In this document: piece by piece, positions 10,018 to 21,407 of the stretch
Layout: the number at the start of each line of letters is the position of its first letter
How positions within the stretch are numbered: position 1 is the stretch's first letter
NCBI RefSeq assembly: GCF_023516715.1
Contig: NZ_JAMGSI010000002.1
Coordinates: forward strand, 806,001-870,000
Reading direction: 5' to 3'
Source of the DNA: Akkermansia massiliensis
GTDB lineage: Bacteria; Verrucomicrobiota; Verrucomicrobiia; Verrucomicrobiales; Akkermansiaceae
Length of the DNA: 64,000 bases
Notes under the pieces: generated by a model
The model's input: the letters and a program-made list of their open reading frames with translations, nothing else
Databases searched by the model: none
What the model was told of the DNA's origin: nothing
Program-made: the position numbers and the translations under genes

Positions 10018-10296
10018 TTAAAGAAACGGAAAAATTAATAAAAACATTATACATATAAAAAAGAAGTAAAAAATAGAAACAACAAAAAATATCAGTAGAT
10101 TTTTTCTATTTGAGAAGAGAGAATATATCCAGCAAAATAGAAAAATTAAAATAACTAAAATTAAATAGAAAATCAAATAACCTAATTGCCTATCATTATT
10201 TTTATTATAAAATTGTGGCAGAATATATGTGACACATATATTAATTATAAATAAAATAATAGGAACGAACCAGGTTATAACATTTTTTGTATTCAT
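10018..10296 (-). CDS. Small integral membrane protein, candidate immunity protein to the RHS toxin
   Basis: 92 aa, almost entirely hydrophobic, with three transmembrane helices (about 7-27, 39-59 and 67-90). Its ATG overlaps the RHS stop codon (ATGA, 10293-10296), so it is translationally coupled to the toxin. In polymorphic toxin systems the gene directly after the toxin tip is normally the immunity gene. A membrane immunity protein would fit a toxin acting on or from the periplasmic side of the inner membrane. I do not recognise a named immunity family. Confidence 0.6.
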   Translation of the reverse strand: MNTKNVITWFVPIILFIINICVTYILPQFYNKNNDRQLGYLIFYLILVILIFLFCWIYSLFSNRKNLLIFFVVSIFYFFFICIMFLLIFPFL

Positions 10297-13200
10297 TTAT
10301 TTGATGATAGATTATATTCATCTTGTTTTACACCTTTGATAATAAAATTCTTAGAATTGAATTGAAATTCAGGTATTTTACCGGAAACAAAACAAGCTAC
10401 ATTTCTAAAACACTTAGCCATTTTTTCTTTCCATGTTCCTTCTAAAGATCGAAAATCAAAATCATATATATCATATATATCATATATGTACAATGAATAT
10501 TTAAAATTAAATTTATTATCAACAATACCTCCAACAATATAACTATAATCTCCTAAAATATATAGCATATCATTTTCTTTGGAATGGGCCAGAGACCAAT
10601 TTTTCATTCTAATATTCTTATTGCATCTATTTTTAGGATCTTCCTTCACAAAAGCAATGGCTTTTCTAACAGCATACATCTCTGGTTTTTTGGGTATTTT
10701 ATTAGGATCATATGTATAATCAGTTCCTCTTCCTGCCAAAAAATGAGTATAAATTTTCATTATATCAATATTCCAATATCTTAAACTAACAAATCCCATA
10801 ACTGCTGCAAATACAGCTCTTCCATTAGGACCGAGTCCATTAATAATAAAATTATCTATGATTTCGTCATGACCAGGATCACTAAAAGAAAGATTATATT
10901 TCTTTGTCACAATTTCTTTAACATCTCCTAATTCCAATTCAATGGAGCTCAATCCTAATAAATCCGCCTCTATATTAATACTATTATTAATAAATGAGTA
11001 CAAATTCCAACCTCCTTGTTCCTGAATGGGATCGCGGTTGATCCACCTGCCGTCTGCGGGATTGAGGTGGCGGTAATTGTAGTAGACAAGCCCCAATTCG
11101 TCATCTGCATACTCGCAGGAAAACCTGAACTTGTTCTCTTGAGCCATGTCTTCCTTAGCGGTGAGAAGGCTACCAAAAGGAGCATACTCGTAACGAGCTC
11201 TTCTCGTCTGTTGTCCGTCAAAAATGGAAGTAACGTTCTTCAAGGCATCGTGCATGAAGTAGAGATGCTCTTTTACTTTCATTCCGTTTTCCTGCCAGCA
11301 TGTCATCATCAGGATGCGCGTTGCCGTCGGTTCCGTTGGATCCAACAGGTAGCTCTTTATAAGCATAGGCTCAGGCTGCATCAAATCCAGTTCGGCTACC
11401 TGCAGATAATCCCGGTACAGGAACCGGGAGTGGCTGGATACTGCCCCATTGACGGTGACCTTCTTCTCGAAGCGCCTTCCCCGGTAGTCGTAGCCGCAGG
11501 TAATGGACGTTCTGCCATCCTGGCTGGTGAAGACGACGGGGCGGTCATTGGCGTCGTAGGAGATTTCCCAGATGCCCGTTGAGGTCCTGATGCGGGTCTG
11601 GTTGCCGTCGGCATCGTAGACGGGGGTAAAATCTTCTCCTTCCCCGGCAATCTCCGTGTACTGGTTGAGCGGGTTGGATTCGTAGGCTACTTCCTTCTCC
11701 AGTTCACGGGCGGTCTTGCGGTTGCCGATGTTGTCATAGCAGTACGCAAAGCTTCCTCCCCGGCTGATGCGGTCTTCCAGCAGTTCACTGCGGCTGTTGT
11801 AGGTAAAATCTCTTATCGTCGCGGGAGTGGCAGCATCCCATAAGTCCCGTCGTTGAGTAGGACGCATCAGCGCGTCGTAGTCGTATTCGTGGCCGGCCGC
11901 CAATTCGCCATCCGCTCCCTTCCTGTAACCGATAGCGGTTACGAGGTTGAGTGTGGGATGGTAGGTATTGCAGCGGACCATGCCGTTGGGGTAGGTGAGA
12001 TGGTGGAGGAAGCCGGTGGTTTGATCGTACCGCCAGGTAAAAGAAGACTTCAGTCCTTCCAGATTCATCCCAATCATGCCGCCTTTGGAATCGTAGTCAA
12101 GATGGGAGTGCTGCACGGTGCGTGTGCCGAGCATCAAGCGGTATCCGTTGGAACGCCCCTGGGCATCGTATTCTTCTTGAAGAGAACTTTCCACCTGTCC
12201 AAAGGAAGTGTCCTGAATCATCCTTCCGTAGCTGTCATAGGAAAATTCCCTGAGACCCGAAGCGTCATAGACGGAGATTATCTGCCCCAGATGGTTGGAT
12301 GAAAAGATCCAGGGAGAAGTTCCATCGCTGTAGGAAACCGAGATGAGTTCTCCTGTAAAGGGAGCATACTTATACGTTATGACAAGCCCCCTGGCTTTGA
12401 CAAGTGTCTCCTGACGGTTGAGCTCGTCATAGGTTCTGGAAACACAGGAACCGTCGGCATAAGTCTTTTTCAATTCCAGCCCCGTGGCCTCGTCATAGAG
12501 CCAGGTGGTGGTGTCTCCGTCGGTTCGGCCGGAAGGATCGGAAGTGATGTCGCCTTCGTTTGCACGGAAGGTAGTCAGGGCCACCATGCGGTCGGCTTCG
12601 TCGTAGGCGAAGCAGGCCGGCTGAATGGCGGTGCCATATTCGGCCGTCTTTCTGCCGCGTATGTCGTAGGAATAACAGGTTGTTCCTCCCAAAGCGTCGG
12701 TGATGCAGGCAGGATGGTCACAGCAGGACGAGTAGCTGGTGGTGGTGACATGGCCCGCAGGACCAGTAGTCTTAACCGGGCGTCCTGCAAGATCCGTTTC
12801 CTCCATAGTGGTGTTGCCGCGGCCATCGGTTTTTTCCAGAATCACCCCTGTAGAGGTGCAGGAACGCCGCTGGATGGAACAGATTCCGGAGTGGTCGGTC
12901 TGATTGGTCCCAAACCCGTCTACGACAAGAGACTCGGCTACCATGTTTGAAGTGGGAATGCGGCTGAACCGGGTGCGCTTGGTTGGAACAGTGTACTCCG
13001 TCCATTGTACGCTCTGCTGTCCGTAGACGTCCGTGGTGATGGATTTGTTTTCCAGTACAGCGCTGAGTCTGGAAACCATGTTTTCCGTGGTCTGGGTGAG
13101 GGGGAATCCGTCGGCGTTGCAGGTGGTGGAAGTCTGCACCTGGTAGACGCCGTCTTCCCGGAGCCGGTAACAGGAGGAGTTTTCCGAGACTCTGTTTCTA

Positions 13201-13688
13201 GAGGGATCATCCGGATGGAGGTCGTCCAGCTGGACGGTCCGCCTCACGGCGTGTCCCAGTTCATTGTAGACGGTGACTGTAGAGGCCATGTCTTCCGTCT
13301 GGGAACGAACCGGTTGCCCCTTGGCATTGTATGTATTACTGGTGACGATGAACCCTCCCTTCGTATTGGGCTGTTCCTGCCGGACGGTTTGACCGAAGCC
13401 GTTTTCCAGAGACCGCAACAGCACAATTCCCTTGGACAAGGTCGTGGTCAGGATGCCTTCCGAAGTCAATTCCAGCCTGGTCTCCATTTCGCGCTGGCCG
13501 GTTCCTCCCTCCAGAATGACAGTGCCGTCGTAATAGGTTTTGGTAACCAGAGTGGCCCCTGCTGGAGTGGTAACCGTGGTGGTAAGGCCGTCTTCGCTGT
13601 ATTCAGTCCGAGTCACGCGTCCAAGAACATCCGTCGTGGCAATCGTTCTTCCCAAATTGTCATACTCCGTGCTTTCCGTCGTCGTCAT
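10293..13688 (-). CDS. RHS/YD-repeat polymorphic toxin, 5' truncated
   Basis: About 1131 codons from the ATG at 13688. The frame continues open to 13901, but those 71 codons lie antisense to a dnaB fragment and look non-RHS. Many YD repeats are seen (forms such as YDELNRQETL, YDAQGRSNGY, YDANDRPVVF). The RHS core ends with YNYRHLNPADGRWINRDPIQ, then NLYSFINN and DLLGL. RHS proteins form a shell around a C-terminal toxin, released by self-cleavage near this motif. The remaining tip of about 220 residues is AT-rich and unlike the core, with features HFLAGRGTDYTYDP, ILGDYSYIVGG and an IYD-IYD-IYDFDF run. I cannot assign its activity. Signal peptide and N-terminal regions are absent, so it is probably a displaced or silent RHS copy. 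Confidence 0.75.
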   Translation of the reverse strand: MTTTESTEYDNLGRTIATTDVLGRVTRTEYSEDGLTTTVTTPAGATLVTKTYYDGTVILEGGTGQREMETRLELTSEGILTTTLSKGIVLLRSLENGFGQTVRQEQPNTKGGFIVTSNTYNAKGQPVRSQTEDMASTVTVYNELGHAVRRTVQLDDLHPDDPSRNRVSENSSCYRLREDGVYQVQTSTTCNADGFPLTQTTENMVSRLSAVLENKSITTDVYGQQSVQWTEYTVPTKRTRFSRIPTSNMVAESLVVDGFGTNQTDHSGICSIQRRSCTSTGVILEKTDGRGNTTMEETDLAGRPVKTTGPAGHVTTTSYSSCCDHPACITDALGGTTCYSYDIRGRKTAEYGTAIQPACFAYDEADRMVALTTFRANEGDITSDPSGRTDGDTTTWLYDEATGLELKKTYADGSCVSRTYDELNRQETLVKARGLVITYKYAPFTGELISVSYSDGTSPWIFSSNHLGQIISVYDASGLREFSYDSYGRMIQDTSFGQVESSLQEEYDAQGRSNGYRLMLGTRTVQHSHLDYDSKGGMIGMNLEGLKSSFTWRYDQTTGFLHHLTYPNGMVRCNTYHPTLNLVTAIGYRKGADGELAAGHEYDYDALMRPTQRRDLWDAATPATIRDFTYNSRSELLEDRISRGGSFAYCYDNIGNRKTARELEKEVAYESNPLNQYTEIAGEGEDFTPVYDADGNQTRIRTSTGIWEISYDANDRPVVFTSQDGRTSITCGYDYRGRRFEKKVTVNGAVSSHSRFLYRDYLQVAELDLMQPEPMLIKSYLLDPTEPTATRILMMTCWQENGMKVKEHLYFMHDALKNVTSIFDGQQTRRARYEYAPFGSLLTAKEDMAQENKFRFSCEYADDELGLVYYNYRHLNPADGRWINRDPIQEQGGWNLYSFINNSINIEADLLGLSSIELELGDVKEIVTKKYNLSFSDPGHDEIIDNFIINGLGPNGRAVFAAVMGFVSLRYWNIDIMKIYTHFLAGRGTDYTYDPNKIPKKPEMYAVRKAIAFVKEDPKNRCNKNIRMKNWSLAHSKENDMLYILGDYSYIVGGIVDNKFNFKYSLYIYDIYDIYDFDFRSLEGTWKEKMAKCFRNVACFVSGKIPEFQFNSKNFIIKGVKQDEYNLSSNK
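10462..10488. repeat. Three tandem 9-bp units in the RHS tip
   Basis: Units TCATATATA, TCATATATA and TCATATATG follow each other. On the minus strand they code for consecutive Ile-Tyr-Asp triplets just before FDF. A 9-bp unit can change copy number without shifting the frame. Confidence 0.8.
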
Positions 13689-14079
13689 GGGACCCACGTC
13701 CAGGCAGGCCGCCAACAGCCGGGAACGCGAAGTCGCGGAAATATCCGCGGGCCTGAAAGCCCTGGCAAAGGAATTAAAGGTTCCGGTCATCGTCCTGGCC
13801 CAGCTTAACCGTGGACCGGAGACGCGCGCGGGAAATAGCGTGGGCGTCCCCCGTATGTCCGACCTGCGCGAGTCCGGTTCCATTGAGCAGGACGCGGACA
13901 TGATAGGCTTGCTTTACCGTTCCGACTACTACGCCGAGGACGAGGACCAGCGGCAACAACTCGCCGGACAGGCCAGCCTTCACCTCGCCAAAAACCGCAA
14001 CGGCCCCACCGGGGACGTTCCGCTTCACTTTGACGCGGAACTCATGCGTTTCATCACCCGCGAGCCTGAAAAAAAATAG
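13689..14079 (+). pseudogene. dnaB: 3' fragment of replicative DNA helicase dnaB
   Basis: The plus-strand frame ending at the TAG at 14077-14079 codes for about 130 residues that match the C-terminal third of DnaB: REREVAEISAGLKALAKEL, PVIVLAQLNRGPETR, then DLRESGSIEQDADMIGLLYR, LAKNRNGPTGDVPLHF and RFITREP. Homology begins just after where the Walker B segment (DYLQLM in DnaB) would be. Upstream of about 13689 the frame runs into antisense RHS sequence, so the Walker A, primase-binding and N-terminal regions are missing. A complete dnaB must exist elsewhere because it is essential. This is a duplicated or displaced fragment, or an assembly join. Confidence 0.85.
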
Positions 14080-15885: not shown

Positions 15886-17049
15886 CTATTCCTGGCCGGA
15901 GCAGCGGGCGGCCTCCTGCATTTCCCGGATGCATTCCTCCATTAGCGCGGCGTCTATTTCATGGACGTCCTTTCCCCGGCCTATCCCGGTAAGCATCAAT
16001 ACCGTCAAATGGCCGCCAAGGTGCTCACGGAAGGCTTCCAGGCCCTTCAGCACTTCGCATGCGCCATCCTCCGTCCTGCGGGAGAGCAGAGGGTGGAACA
16101 CGGGCAGTCCCAGGGCTTTCAGTACGGAGACGATTCTTTCCGCCTCCGCAGCAGGCAGCCATCCCTTCCTGACGGAATAAAGGATATCCAGGCACATGCC
16201 CACGGAAACGGCTTCCGCATGGCCCAGCGTGTAGCCGGACATGGTTTCCATGTAATGGGCGGCCCAGTGTCCGAAGTCCAGGGGGCGGCTGGAACCCAAT
16301 TCAAAGGCGTCTCCACCTCCGGCGATGTGAGCGGCGTGCAGCAGCGCGGAACGCTCCACGGCATATTCCAGCGCGTCCCGCTCGCAGGCGGCCAGCGCGT
16401 CGGCGTTCGTTTCCAGCCAGTCAAAGAAGGAGGCGTCTTTTACCACGGCCACCTTCACCACTTCCGCCAGGCCGGCCCTTTTAAGGGAGAGGGGCTGGGA
16501 ATGAAGGAACAGGAAGTCGTTAAGCGTGGCCCAGGCTACGGCGAAGGTGCCCAGGTAGTTCTTCTGCCCCATGAAGTTAATTCCGTTTTTGACGCCTACG
16601 CCGGAATCCGCCTGGGAAAGGGTGGTGGTGGGCACGCGCAGCAGCCGGATGCCGCGGTGGGCGGTGGCGGCGGCAAAGCCCGCTACGTCCAGAAACGCCC
16701 CGCCTCCCACGGCAATGATGTAGGAATGGCGGTCGATGCCCGCTTCCACAATGTGGCGGAGGGCCTTTTCCCACGCGGCAAAGCCGGTTTTGGCCGCTTC
16801 CCCGCCCGGAACGGAACGGCAGCCGGCATAGGCCAGTTCTCCGGCGTTCTTTTCAAAATAACGGTCGATGTCCGCCGGGAGCTGCGGATAAAACCGTTCC
16901 AGCCCTTCCTCCATGAGGACGAGGACGCGGCCTCCGGGCCTCTGCTCCATCAGGCTGGCCAGCGCATCGTTTTCCGGACGGAAGGCTCCGTGGGTAAAGC
17001 CCGTTCTATAGGGAAAATCCAGCCGGATATTCAGCGTATGAAGGGACAT
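15886..17049 (-). CDS. 3-dehydroquinate synthase family cyclase, EboD-like
   Basis: 387 aa. The fold and NAD-binding signature of the sugar-phosphate cyclases are clear: AVGGGAFLDVAGFAAATAHRG (near 113-133), PTTTLSQADSGVGVKNGINF, and HWAAHYMETMSG...LGHAEAVSVGM with metal-binding His residues. Canonical AroB has TTLLAQVDSSVGGKTG; here the segment is TTTLSQADSGVGVKNG, which I associate with EboD-type cyclases rather than housekeeping AroB. It may still serve as the only DHQ synthase of the shikimate pathway. It lies 36 nt after the HtrA-like pair on the same strand. No other shikimate or ebo gene is near. Confidence 0.75.
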   Translation of the reverse strand: MSLHTLNIRLDFPYRTGFTHGAFRPENDALASLMEQRPGGRVLVLMEEGLERFYPQLPADIDRYFEKNAGELAYAGCRSVPGGEAAKTGFAAWEKALRHIVEAGIDRHSYIIAVGGGAFLDVAGFAAATAHRGIRLLRVPTTTLSQADSGVGVKNGINFMGQKNYLGTFAVAWATLNDFLFLHSQPLSLKRAGLAEVVKVAVVKDASFFDWLETNADALAACERDALEYAVERSALLHAAHIAGGGDAFELGSSRPLDFGHWAAHYMETMSGYTLGHAEAVSVGMCLDILYSVRKGWLPAAEAERIVSVLKALGLPVFHPLLSRRTEDGACEVLKGLEAFREHLGGHLTVLMLTGIGRGKDVHEIDAALMEECIREMQEAARCSGQE

Positions 17050-17085: not shown

Positions 17086-18666
17086 CTAATCCCTGCGGAG
17101 CACGGGAACAGCCCTCATCTGGATGAAGCGGTCCGCCTTGGCGGCCTCTTTCTGGGACATGTACATGGTGTACGGCTGCTGGGCCACCTCAATGCGGTGC
17201 GTGCCGCCGGGAGCGGGCAGGTCCAGAAGCTGGTTGAGGTGCTTGAGGCTCTTTACCTGGACGCCGTTCACTTTTTCCACAATGGAGGAGTTCATCTGGG
17301 CATAGCCCAGCGTGGCCTGGGTGGGCAGCGCCATCAGGAAGACCACGATTTCATCCACGCCTTTTTTCCGGATGTCTTCCTTTTTCTGAATAGCTTCCAG
17401 CAGGTTGAGAGGGGGGCGGTTCTTGCTGAGCTTATTGATTTCCCTCATCAGGGCTCCCGTCAGGGGGACGAACACCAGACCTCCGTAAATGCGGTAGGGG
17501 GGATTGGAAATAAAGGGGGCCGGATTGATCAGATCCCCCTCCAGCGCGCTCCGGTCAAGCTTGACATCCAGCGTCATGGGCTGGCTGACGCCGTCCTTAT
17601 CCTTGCGGCGGATGCCCAGCGTGATGGTGTCCCCCGGCATGGCGGAGTCACGGAACAGGACGTTGGCGGAAACGGGGCCCAGCGCGGGGTCCCTGATCAG
17701 GCCTTTGCTGTCCAGCGGAATGCCGTTGACGCTTTCCACCACGTCTCCGGGACGCACGCCTGCCTTGTAAAAGGAACCGTAGACAGGCAGTTTCACCACG
17801 TAAAAGCCGCCGCCGGTTTCCGGAAGGCCCAGGAACTTGCGGAAAACGGGGTCCGTCAGCTCCGTGACCTGGGTGCCGTCCGCCGGGAAGCCGGTGTAAT
17901 TGCCGGACCGGGCCTGTTGGAGGAACCGGGAAATCATGGTATGGGTCACGGCCAGCGCCTTCTGGGCGGAAGGATCGCAGCTGGCGCTGAGAGCCACCAG
18001 TTTATTATCCCTCATGATGGGGTTGCCTGCGCCGCCTTTCAGAGGCGTGACGGAGGATTTGACATTGTACAGGACAAAAGGTTCGCTGTTGGTGAAAGGG
18101 CTGGAGCTTTCCGTTGCCAGAAGGGTTCCGGACGTAGTGATGGGGAGGCCGTCGTCATTGAACTGCCAGAAGGTCACCTTGTCGCCCAGGCGCGGGGCGT
18201 TCCCCAGCGTGACGGGCACCAGCTTGTCCAGGAAGGCGGCGTCTGCCTCGTTTTTCAGGCGCAGCAGGGCAAGATTGGCTTCCGGGTCAAAGGCGGTCAC
18301 GGTCACGGGAACCGTTTGGGAGCCGTCCGCGGAGGTCACTTCCACGAAGCTGGCGGAATAAACGATGTTGGCCGCCGTCAGAATATTGCCGTCCCCCAGG
18401 TAAATGCCGAAGCCCTGGCTGTACGCCGGGTTTTCCTTGCTCCACGGCTGGACCATGGCATAGCCCTGGTTGGTGGCGTTAATGCCTACCATGGAGTTGG
18501 TGGGAGAAGGGAGCTGCGCCGGAGCGGCCGTTTCCTCCACCTGTTCAGGCGGTGTTTCCGGCTGCTGCCCGGGCTGGGGTTCGGGAGCGGTTCGTCCGGC
18601 TTCGCGCGGCTGGCAGCCGCCGAGCAGAATCAGGGAACCGAGGGCGAAAAGGGAAAGAATTTTCAT
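17086..18666 (-). CDS. Catalytically dead HtrA-like PDZ lipoprotein
   Basis: 526 aa with a lipoprotein signal (LILLGGC, lipid-modified Cys 18), a Pro/Glu-rich linker (20-55), a trypsin-like domain (about 60-260) and PDZ regions after it (PGDVVESVNGIP, then VEKVNGVQVKSLKHLNQLL near the end). Its layout mirrors the neighbouring active HtrA. All three triad positions are replaced: Asn 100 for His (LTAANIV), Asn 131 for Asp (EANLALL) and Ala 213 for Ser (GGAGNP in place of GNSGGP). It is therefore a pseudoprotease, perhaps a regulator, scaffold or substrate adaptor of the active enzyme. It starts 5 nt after the HtrA stop, so the two are co-translated. Confidence 0.85.
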   Translation of the reverse strand: MKILSLFALGSLILLGGCQPREAGRTAPEPQPGQQPETPPEQVEETAAPAQLPSPTNSMVGINATNQGYAMVQPWSKENPAYSQGFGIYLGDGNILTAANIVYSASFVEVTSADGSQTVPVTVTAFDPEANLALLRLKNEADAAFLDKLVPVTLGNAPRLGDKVTFWQFNDDGLPITTSGTLLATESSSPFTNSEPFVLYNVKSSVTPLKGGAGNPIMRDNKLVALSASCDPSAQKALAVTHTMISRFLQQARSGNYTGFPADGTQVTELTDPVFRKFLGLPETGGGFYVVKLPVYGSFYKAGVRPGDVVESVNGIPLDSKGLIRDPALGPVSANVLFRDSAMPGDTITLGIRRKDKDGVSQPMTLDVKLDRSALEGDLINPAPFISNPPYRIYGGLVFVPLTGALMREINKLSKNRPPLNLLEAIQKKEDIRKKGVDEIVVFLMALPTQATLGYAQMNSSIVEKVNGVQVKSLKHLNQLLDLPAPGGTHRIEVAQQPYTMYMSQKEAAKADRFIQMRAVPVLRRD

Positions 18667-18671
18667 GGCGG

Positions 18672-20243
18672 TTAACGGGCGGGGTTGGTGTTCCGGTCAG
18701 GCTGGCGGCCGGGAATGGCGCTGTCCAGACGGGCGTTTTTCGGGATGTTGTAGGTTTTGGAGATGCGCTTGTTGGCCGCCTCCATGGCCTTGCCTTCAAA
18801 GATCAGGGGGCGTTCCCCGTTTTTCAGTTCAATAATCACGTATTCCGGCATATTCTTCGGATAAAGGAGTTCGTAGGCGTGGGTGAGGCCCTTGACCTTC
18901 ACGCCGTTGATTTTTTCCACGATGGCGTTGGAGATGGAGCCGGACAGGCGCGCGTTCACTTCATCGTCCAGCACCTTGGTGATGATTACCATGTCTTCAT
19001 GGTCCACGCAGCCGCCGTCTTCCTGGTAATCCCGGATATCCAGGGCGACGTCCAGCATGGAGATGTCCGCCGCCGCAAGCACATTGCGCTGGATGGGCTG
19101 GAACACCAGGCCGCCGAAGACGATATAGCGGGGCATCTTGTCGTATTCCGCCATCAGCAGATCCTTGGAGAGAGAGGGCTTCATCACCATCTCCACCTTC
19201 ATGGGCTTGCCGTCGCGGATGATATCCAGCGGGAGCCGGTCATCCTTGAAGCAGCGTTCAATGAGCTCTTTCATGCTGATTTTCTGGCCGTCCAGCTCAA
19301 TCATGGCGGAGCTGTCCACGTCGTAGCCGTCCACCTTCATCAGCAGGTCCCCGTTGCGGAGCACTCCATCGGCGGAGGAGCCCTTGAGCACTTTGCCGAT
19401 CAGGACGCCCTTCTCGTCGTCCGGCAGGCCGAACGCCTTGCGCATGGCGGGATTCAGGATGGGCGCGGCCTGGATGCCCATGTCCACGTAGCCGTCATAG
19501 ACGCCGTCCTTGATGTCCTCCAGAAAGTGGCGGATGACGGGCGTGGGAATCACGTAGCCCGTGTTGTTGGCGTTGTTCAGGCCCTGGAAGGCTACGCCGA
19601 TGACTTTGTCCCCCATCAGGGCGGGGCCCCCGCTGTTGCCCGGATTGATGGCGGCGTCCACCTGGATGGTCAGGTGTTCCGTGTTGCGGGGGTGGGCATA
19701 TGTGGTGAAGTCGATGCGGGAGACTACGCCGCGCGTGACGGAAAGCCTGTTGCCGCCGATGGGGTAGCCGATCACCCTCACCTCGTCTTCCAGGTGGGGC
19801 AGGTTCTTGCTGAATTCAAAAGGCCGGATGCCCTTGAAGGGCTTGGGGTCGTCCGCTTCCAGCAGGGCCAGGTCCGCATCATGGGCGATGAATTTGACCC
19901 TGGCGGGAATTTTGCGGGAATCCCCGTACATGGAGATGTAAATGCGTTCCGCGTTGCTGACCACATGGGCGTTCGTCATGAAGGCGTTTTCCCCGATCAG
20001 GAAGCCGGTGCCGATGCCGCCCTGGTAGCGGCCCGTATCCCATGGAGTGGCGTAGTCCGGCGTCAGGGAATCCACTTCGATCTTCACGACTCCCTTGTAT
20101 TGGTCATTGATGGAAACGACGGGGCCGGACATGACCTTGTCCACCCCGAAGTCTGAAATGGAAACGGCCGGTTCATCCGCGTAGGAAAAAGCGGCGGCGG
20201 CCAGGACTGCACACAGTCCTTGGAGGCAGGTATGGAAGTGCAT
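18672..20243 (-). CDS. HtrA/Deg-type PDZ serine protease
   Basis: 523 aa with an N-terminal signal peptide (1-22). The trypsin-like domain has an intact triad: His 93 (TNAHVV), Asp 124 (HDADLALLEA) and Ser 204 (NPGNSGGPAL). Two PDZ-like regions follow: GVLIGKVLKGSSADGVLRNG near 290-310, and a C-terminal one with VEKINGVKVKGLTHAYELL. Such proteases degrade or chaperone misfolded envelope proteins in the periplasm. The C-terminal half is longer than in E. coli DegP. It is the middle gene of a three-gene set with an unknown protein upstream and the dead paralogue downstream. Confidence 0.9.
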   Translation of the reverse strand: MHFHTCLQGLCAVLAAAAFSYADEPAVSISDFGVDKVMSGPVVSINDQYKGVVKIEVDSLTPDYATPWDTGRYQGGIGTGFLIGENAFMTNAHVVSNAERIYISMYGDSRKIPARVKFIAHDADLALLEADDPKPFKGIRPFEFSKNLPHLEDEVRVIGYPIGGNRLSVTRGVVSRIDFTTYAHPRNTEHLTIQVDAAINPGNSGGPALMGDKVIGVAFQGLNNANNTGYVIPTPVIRHFLEDIKDGVYDGYVDMGIQAAPILNPAMRKAFGLPDDEKGVLIGKVLKGSSADGVLRNGDLLMKVDGYDVDSSAMIELDGQKISMKELIERCFKDDRLPLDIIRDGKPMKVEMVMKPSLSKDLLMAEYDKMPRYIVFGGLVFQPIQRNVLAAADISMLDVALDIRDYQEDGGCVDHEDMVIITKVLDDEVNARLSGSISNAIVEKINGVKVKGLTHAYELLYPKNMPEYVIIELKNGERPLIFEGKAMEAANKRISKTYNIPKNARLDSAIPGRQPDRNTNPAR

Positions 20244-20285: not shown

Positions 20286-21407
20286 TTATAGATTGCTTTT
20301 CCGGCTTTGGGTTGCCAGGCTTTCCTGGAAGGAGTTGACTTCCTCCAGCAAGGAAGAAAAACGTTCCGTCACCTCGTCGTCTACCTGGCTGCGGCGGATG
20401 TCCAGCGCGGCTACCGTCTGGCGCGTCTGTTCCACGCACAGGGCCATGCGGGCGGCCATGGTGCAGTAGTCCGCATCGTTTTCCTTCTCCTGGAGCAGGC
20501 AGGAGAGAATGCGCGGGGTGATGTAGCGGATGCAGTAAAAAATCTGGTTCAGGGGTTCCGGCGGTTCCGTCCGGTTCCTCTGGGATTTGTTGATCTCCCG
20601 GCTGAACTGGCGCTGGCACAGGTCCGTCAGCTCCATGACCTGCTGGAAGAGGGGGTGGAACATGCAGGACTGCACCTCCTGGGCCTCCTGTTCGTTGAGG
20701 ATGTCAAAGAGGCTGAGCATGCCGGTGCTTTTGCAGGAACACGGAGTGCCCGTTTCCTCCGACTGGGCGATGTTGTCAAGCACGTCGTCCCAGCCCATCA
20801 CAAAGGCCAGGCGGATGTCTCCGGTGGGGTTCAGCCTGTATTTCTGGAACACTTCCTGGTAGGCGATGGCGATGGCTTCCGCCTCCCGCAGGCGCTTGTC
20901 CCAGTGGTGGTCGGGCAGGTTGCCGTCTTCCTGGGTATTGGCATAGGTTTTGGACCATTCCTTCACCTGGGTGCGCAGCATCTGCTGGTTCGCCATGATC
21001 TGAACCTGTTCCTCGCAGGAATCCATGATCCATTCGGGGAGGGAGACCTTGATGGAAAAGGCCGTGCTTTCCAGCAGCACCATGTCGTGGTGGCTGGTGA
21101 ACCATTCCAGGTACAGGGAGTTTTCCATGGTTTTCTTCCCCTTGACGGGCATGCGGCGGCTGGCCGTCATGTCCCCCGCCACGCCCCGGATGTTTTCCGG
21201 GAGCTGGGTAAGTTCCGCAGGGAGCATCCGGGGGGAGGGGTTCCTGAAATCGACCAGGCATCCGGCCAGATCCTGGAGGCAGTCCCCCTGCAGGGTGATA
21301 TTCACCGGATGGGGCATCCCCATAAGCTGCAGCGCAAGCTTGACGGTTCCGCGTTCACGGTTGTCCAGCGTGCCGTAGTGGACGTAGTCTGTAATTCTGA
21401 AAATCAT
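20286..21407 (-). CDS. Hypothetical protein upstream of the HtrA pair
   Basis: 373 aa, no signal peptide and no family I recognise. The C-terminal half (about 230-370) is helical and rich in Gln/Glu, with possible coiled coil (DEVTERFSSLLEEVNSFQESL). Several Cys residues occur around residues 226-250 (PCSCKSTGM) and later, without an obvious zinc pattern. It is cytoplasmic by composition. The ATG at 21405-21407 is the first in frame. It precedes htrA by 42 nt on the same strand, so a link to the protease pair is possible but only by position. Confidence 0.7.
   Translation of the reverse strand: MIFRITDYVHYGTLDNRERGTVKLALQLMGMPHPVNITLQGDCLQDLAGCLVDFRNPSPRMLPAELTQLPENIRGVAGDMTASRRMPVKGKKTMENSLYLEWFTSHHDMVLLESTAFSIKVSLPEWIMDSCEEQVQIMANQQMLRTQVKEWSKTYANTQEDGNLPDHHWDKRLREAEAIAIAYQEVFQKYRLNPTGDIRLAFVMGWDDVLDNIAQSEETGTPCSCKSTGMLSLFDILNEQEAQEVQSCMFHPLFQQVMELTDLCQRQFSREINKSQRNRTEPPEPLNQIFYCIRYITPRILSCLLQEKENDADYCTMAARMALCVEQTRQTVAALDIRRSQVDDEVTERFSSLLEEVNSFQESLATQSRKSNL

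Follow-up and report, generated by a model that had tools for sequence, protein, structure and literature searches.

A predicted active HtrA protease and its triad-less sister form a conserved tandem in Verrucomicrobiota

Two HtrA-type genes at one locus

The window analysed here, a stretch of 64,000 nucleotides from Akkermansia massiliensis, carries on its minus strand two separate frames that we call A and B. Gene A (18672..20243) lies upstream and encodes a predicted active HtrA protease of 523 amino acids (aa). Gene B (17086..18666) lies downstream, beyond a gap of 5 nucleotides (nt; 18667..18671), and encodes a triad-less HtrA paralogue of 526 aa that is a predicted lipoprotein. A preliminary description of the locus had reported two PDZ proteins of similar size 5 nt apart, with His93, Asp124 and Ser204 in the first and Asn100, Asn131 and Ala213 plus a lipobox Cys18 in the second; coordinates, gap, sizes and residues all proved correct. 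The pairing of an active with an inactive HtrA is real, old and well conserved, and is of a kind already known.

The Trypsin_2 and PDZ_3 (PF17815) models score above their Pfam cut-offs in both proteins. In A, the protease domain covers residues 78-209 (19617..20012) and the C-terminal PDZ_3 domain residues 366-503 (18735..19148), with a further model, PDZ (PF00595), barely above cut-off. By eye, the N-terminus is signal-peptide-like. The codons of the catalytic residues lie at 19965..19967 (His93), 19872..19874 (Asp124) and 19632..19634 (Ser204); A thus has the triad of a catalytically competent HtrA, and protease activity is predicted for it. The corresponding parts of B are a degenerate Trypsin_2 domain (residues 86-225, 17992..18411) and a C-terminal PDZ_3 domain (residues 388-515, 17122..17505), and here PDZ_6 is the further model above cut-off. 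Up to an E-value of 1, Pfam matches to B comprise Trypsin_2 and PDZ-type models only, with no TauE-like domain. In the alignment, B shows TAAN, PEAN and GGAGNP at the His, Asp and Ser sites, occupied by Asn100 (18367..18369), Asn131 (18274..18276) and Ala213 (18028..18030), and a 2-residue insertion directly precedes GGAGNP. The protein begins with a predicted signal peptide and the lipobox LLGGC (residues 14-18), which ends at Cys18 (18613..18615). Domain content alone would mis-annotate B as a protease. A further HtrA encoded elsewhere in the same genome (L003) retains ITAYHV, DIAV and GNSGGP by eye. Promoter and terminator scans gave no signal above shuffles.

A and B are 24% identical across 421 aa (E 2e-26). 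The closest solved structures to each by sequence are the plant proteins Deg2/Deg9 (for 4fln, E 1.4e-79 with A and 2e-26 with B), and by this measure both are HtrAs of the Deg2/Deg9 type. AlphaFold models made from 11 rows were of low confidence, with a mean predicted local distance difference test score (pLDDT) of 46.1 (B) and 45.8. A structure search with this low-confidence B model returned 5ilb, 5il9 and 4fln as its top three (Z 23.8, 23.2 and 23.0; 264-269 residues aligned), the first with a root-mean-square deviation of 3.5 over 269 residues. Because other HtrAs are nearly tied with these (8kic, Z 22.8), the model speaks for an HtrA fold more than for a subfamily.

Distribution, linkage and descent of the pair

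With B as query, matches were found in 59 of 59 genomes (its own, 36 of the genus and 22 of the order), two in each. By the listed coordinates the two matches are adjacent in 58 of these genomes; in the other (G029) they are split between two contigs, one of which begins with A. Matches were also obtained in 63 of 140 genomes of a class-level sample and in 50 of 145 genomes of a phylum-level sample, the two samples overlapping. PDZ_3 was present in 52 of the 145 phylum genomes (above cut-off in 51) and in none of 14 control genomes. We retrieved 120 stretches, which with the window locus (L001) gave 121 loci: 96 adjacent pairs and 25 single hits. Left out of this retrieval were, from the 59-genome search, the matches in G007, G011, G017, G020, G022, G025, G028, G029 and G036, the class-level Akkermansia-genus matches in G084, G093, G102, G109, G121, G136, G148, G162 and G178, and two genomes with PDZ_3 and no B match (G226 and G243). 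The A and B labels of L105, where the B frame starts early, were swapped back; L101 was relabelled as an unlinked B; and another HtrA frame of 513 aa at L136 (NNHVV, GNSGGP) was excluded as an ordinary HtrA. The resulting 97 B proteins (96 paired, plus L101) span 36 families and 55 genera of Verrucomicrobiota by the taxonomy codes of the survey. A contig scan with exact peptide patterns found five named loci, all from Akkermansia or Akkermansiaceae: four with 90-95% identity to B, from Akkermansia muciniphila or Akkermansia sp., and a fifth (82%) from an Akkermansiaceae metagenome-assembled genome.

In all 96 adjacent pairs A precedes B on the same strand. The gap between them, estimated from start codons picked by an ad hoc signal-peptide rule, has a median of 19 nt (range -71 to 432) and is at most 60 nt in 85 of the 96. 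One draft assembly, G115, departs from this linkage in a way not readily explained by a contig end: it keeps both genes on different contigs (B as L101, A as L153), and the flanks in which the partner gene would be expected (about 2.5 kb for B and 2.8 kb for A) do not contain it. Every one of the 97 retrieved genomes with B also carries an HtrA of A type with the His-Asp-Ser triad; assignment to this type rests on the tree for L153 and 36 of the 96 adjacent A proteins, and on position and score for the others. The 25 single-hit loci consist of L101 and 24 HtrAs with the full triad. Among them, L150 is a member of the A clade without B, but the contig breaks off 27 nt beyond this gene. None of the 22 single PDZ_3 HtrA loci outside the A clade has a B beside it. 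Of the 22 genomes concerned, 20 yielded no B at all, and two (G280 and G115) carry B at another place, together with an A. Six of the single PDZ_3 HtrAs (L115, L116, L090, L103, L149 and L152), with an intact triad and no adjacent dead partner, form a separate long-branch clade.

Trees were built by quick searches with the triad columns removed, one of 97 rows (36 of the 96 pairs, 24 singles and L101) and one of 67 rows (28 pairs and 11 singles). B forms one side of a branch in both, with values of 99 and 100, respectively, in the Shimodaira-Hasegawa-like approximate likelihood ratio test. In the 97-row tree, B splits into three subgroups, each matched in A by a subgroup with identical loci. 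A constraint that kept A and B of one subgroup together cost 62 log units (p = 0.0015 in the approximately unbiased test), and the idea that B degenerated independently in each subgroup was thereby rejected for one of the three; this test was designed after tree inspection. The split between A and the single HtrAs has moderate support (86). Given the long branches and the quick searches, the deep branching order is provisional. Within the limits of the trees, B has a single origin, one older than the sampled families, and the pair is older than the genus. The Asn and aromatic residues that recur at the former active site of B, described below, lie outside the tree data and agree with a single origin.

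B frames are long in all 97 cases, two of them (L099 and L102) being cut by contig ends. For five close genomes (the window, L034, L035, L036 and L038; 10 pairs for each gene), ratios of nonsynonymous to synonymous substitution rates (dN/dS) ranged from 0.05 to 0.10 for A and from 0.09 to 0.17 for B. B is under purifying selection in these Akkermansia genomes.

Pseudo-site, lipid anchor and surroundings

The triad is intact in the alignment of all 96 A proteins from adjacent pairs. In B, His and Asp are absent from their aligned columns in 97 of 97 proteins, and no triad is possible in any of them; the survey for relatives whose second protein keeps an intact triad, suggested in the preliminary description, therefore found none. 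The absence of His and Asp at these columns is certain. That Ser was lost in every B is not certain and cannot be claimed, because 49 of the 97 proteins have a Ser no more than one residue away from the aligned column (at the column itself in 2), often directly before an aromatic residue.

Outside Akkermansia, the former active site of B has a recurrent composition. Asn occupies the Asp site in 64 of 67 of these proteins (82 of 97 overall), and this site ranks 17th of 462 columns for conservation. Glu, Asp or Gln stands at the His site in 59 of the 67, and an aromatic residue (Phe, Trp or Tyr) fills the Ser column in 57. These two columns rank only 174th and 226th of the 462 by entropy because several residues share each of them. 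In B proteins of the genus Akkermansia, the His, Asp and Ser columns rank 498th, 203rd and 513th of 514 for conservation; the first and last of these are close to the variable extreme, and the pseudo-site is relaxed. With such variable columns, the exact Asn-Asn-Ala set first noticed in the window does not stand as a special signature. What carries information is the pseudo-site that recurs outside Akkermansia, rather than that set.

The lipid anchor has a different distribution. A first, stricter lipobox rule selected 29 of 96 B proteins (21 of 30 from Akkermansia, 8 of 66 others), 5 of 96 A proteins and 3 of 25 singles. The rule is crude, and it was relaxed after its misses were seen; the relaxed version selects 29 of 30 Akkermansia-genus B proteins and 13 of 67 others, against 4 of 30 A proteins from Akkermansia and 11 of 66 from elsewhere. 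Because lipobox-like starts are found in nearly all B proteins of the genus versus few of the others, the predicted anchor is mainly a trait of Akkermansia and a lineage-specific addition. Membrane tethering, offered in the preliminary description as a role of B, is thus not upheld as a general function, the frequency outside Akkermansia being near the background in A. Near the N-terminus, 28 of the 30 Akkermansia-genus B proteins (for example L156, L158 and L161) have the pattern C-[KEQN]-P-[TR]; in the cases displayed it stands right at the lipobox Cys, as a genus-specific mature N-terminus.

Flanking regions of about 3 kb were compared using frames of at least 90 aa and blastp at 1e-10; many stretches were shortened by contig ends, and the window locus contributed 1.5 kb downstream and about 0.1 kb upstream. 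No other family was common to more than 7 of the 96 loci, which makes A-B the conserved unit, and the neighbourhood was accordingly discarded as a clue to function. In the window, a gene resembling 3-dehydroquinate synthase (AroB-like; 15886-17049, minus strand; NF004852, PRK06203) begins 36 nt after B. It is excluded from the unit because only 5 of the 96 loci have a relative of it near the pair, in one case on the opposite strand. Directly upstream of the pair, on the same strand, is a 373-aa protein (20286-21407) with only a chance-level Pfam match (E 0.22) and none in NCBIfam. Elsewhere in the window, a C-terminal fragment of DnaB (13540-14079, plus strand; DnaB_C, E 8.8e-41) is antisense to the initial part of an RHS-repeat frame (10293-13901, minus strand) and stops where the RHS match begins. 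It looks like a rearranged partial copy, because the genome has other matches to it at separate places, in open frames of 471, 541 and 458 aa (92, 85 and 49% identity).

A partner role for B, its rivals and known systems

We propose that A and B form an ancient tandem of an exported Deg2/Deg9-type protease and its dead sister, in which B is probably a non-catalytic partner of A. The proposal draws on the anatomy of the locus, the loss of the triad, the origin of B in the trees, the near-strict linkage, the finding of no B without an A-type protease, and purifying selection. B keeps the HtrA fold and the PDZ_3 domain, and would most likely join A in a hetero-oligomer or dock on it, setting the assembly, activation or substrate access of the protease. 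In Akkermansia, where B is now a predicted lipoprotein, it would bring A to a membrane. Contact between the two proteins, the role in assembly, and regulation of A rather than independent chaperone work are what we infer from this body of evidence. The broader suggestion of the preliminary description, a non-catalytic role maintained by selection and coupled to the active enzyme, is supported by 0 of 97 intact triads, a gene order kept in 96 of 96 pairs and the dN/dS of 0.09-0.17 for B.

Several observations weigh against a partner role. Linkage and co-inheritance are also compatible with two proteins that act in the same pathway without ever making contact, and for MamE and MamO, an active and a dead HtrA of magnetosome systems, the authors had detected no physical interaction, according to the available part of the text (PMC4794232). 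B evolves faster than A. The pseudo-site is relaxed in Akkermansia, and its role elsewhere is therefore not needed there. The AlphaFold models are too poor for interfaces or active-site detail, and a single origin of B is less secure given the long branches and the quick tree searches. Finally, B proteins too diverged for the E-value limits of the genome search (1e-10) or of the flanks (1e-8) would have escaped.

B might alternatively be an independent periplasmic chaperone, scaffold or receptor, holding proteins through its PDZ domains and dead cleft outside any complex with A and adjoining A since both serve envelope quality control. Its PDZ and PDZ_3 domains are kept, Akkermansia tolerates a relaxed pseudo-site, and Campylobacter PflC provides a precedent for a triad-less scaffold derived from HtrA (PMC12222027, in the part available). 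We nevertheless regard such independence as unlikely: B is never found without an A-type protease in the 97 retrieved genomes, it is absent beside the 22 single loci outside the A clade and undetected in most of their genomes, and the linkage of the pair persists while its neighbours change. That B is chiefly a lipid-anchored adaptor tethering A to the membrane is less probable still. The lipobox of the window protein and the lipobox-like starts of nearly all its relatives in the genus favour it, but outside Akkermansia such starts are hardly more frequent in B (13 of 67) than in A (11 of 66), and tethering cannot be the founding function because the pair is older than the genus. As for a functionless, decaying duplicate, the rapid evolution of B and the freely varying triad columns in Akkermansia are what one would expect, but the long frames in all 97 proteins, an origin older than the sampled families, the low dN/dS and the Asn held at the Asp site contradict decay, which we consider very improbable.

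The partner role can be extended to a bolder, more doubtful reading that joins the pseudo-site and the anchor. The pair might be an obligate two-subunit HtrA of Verrucomicrobiota, in which the dead sister is required for assembly or activity of the live protease. Its active site would have been rebuilt with an acidic or amide residue for His, Asn for Asp and an aromatic plug at Ser, a pseudo-site that might lock the cleft or read the state of the partner. Akkermansia would then have lost the plug and gained a lipid anchor, turning a soluble complex into a membrane-bound one.

No description of this A-B pair was found in the literature searched, a search that left most subscription journals outside and is no proof of novelty. 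The words "PDZ" and "HtrA" do not occur in the main text, as available, of an outer-membrane proteome paper on A. muciniphila, the protein tables being outside the search (PMC4960237). Dead relatives of HtrA are known in MamO, dead copies of MamE, PflC, Deg7 and several plant Degs, but for few of them is it settled what a dead subunit contributes to a live HtrA. In the present case a dead sister is fixed beside a live one in many families of the phylum to which the gut symbiont Akkermansia belongs. These families offer a natural series in which to study the task of the dead subunit and the way in which such a partner became a predicted lipoprotein.

For plant Deg2/Deg9 we know of no adjacent dead partner. 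These proteins are the best solved relatives of A and B (4fln, 5il9, 5ilb) but, according to the text available, belong to the chloroplast stroma and nucleolus (PMC3473262), in contrast to the bacterial envelope for A and B. When aligned with C. jejuni HtrA, Campylobacter PflC has Asn65 in place of the catalytic Asp; PflC is a flagellar motor scaffold, and the accessible part of that report mentions no adjacent protease (PMC12222027). Deg7 unites active and degenerate protease halves, each with PDZ domains, which arose by whole-gene duplication (PMC3473262, in part), and it trimerises through the degenerate protease domain (PMC4754418, in the portion available, citing Schuhmann 2011). Both halves of Deg7 share one chain, whereas A and B are two separate genes and so not a tandem of the Deg7 type. 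MamO is required for MamE-dependent proteolysis and its triad is not, and the authors infer selection for pairing of active with inactive forms, with three separate losses within the MamE family (PMC4794232, as far as its text was available). The likeness lies in an active HtrA kept together with a dead relative, here in 96 adjacent pairs and one unlinked case. MamO differs in its TauE-like transporter domain, its metal binding and its restriction to magnetosomes, whereas A and B share one domain layout and occur outside magnetosome systems. By analogy, B is best read as a non-catalytic partner that would stand to A as MamO stands to MamE, or as the degenerate half of Deg7 stands to the active one.

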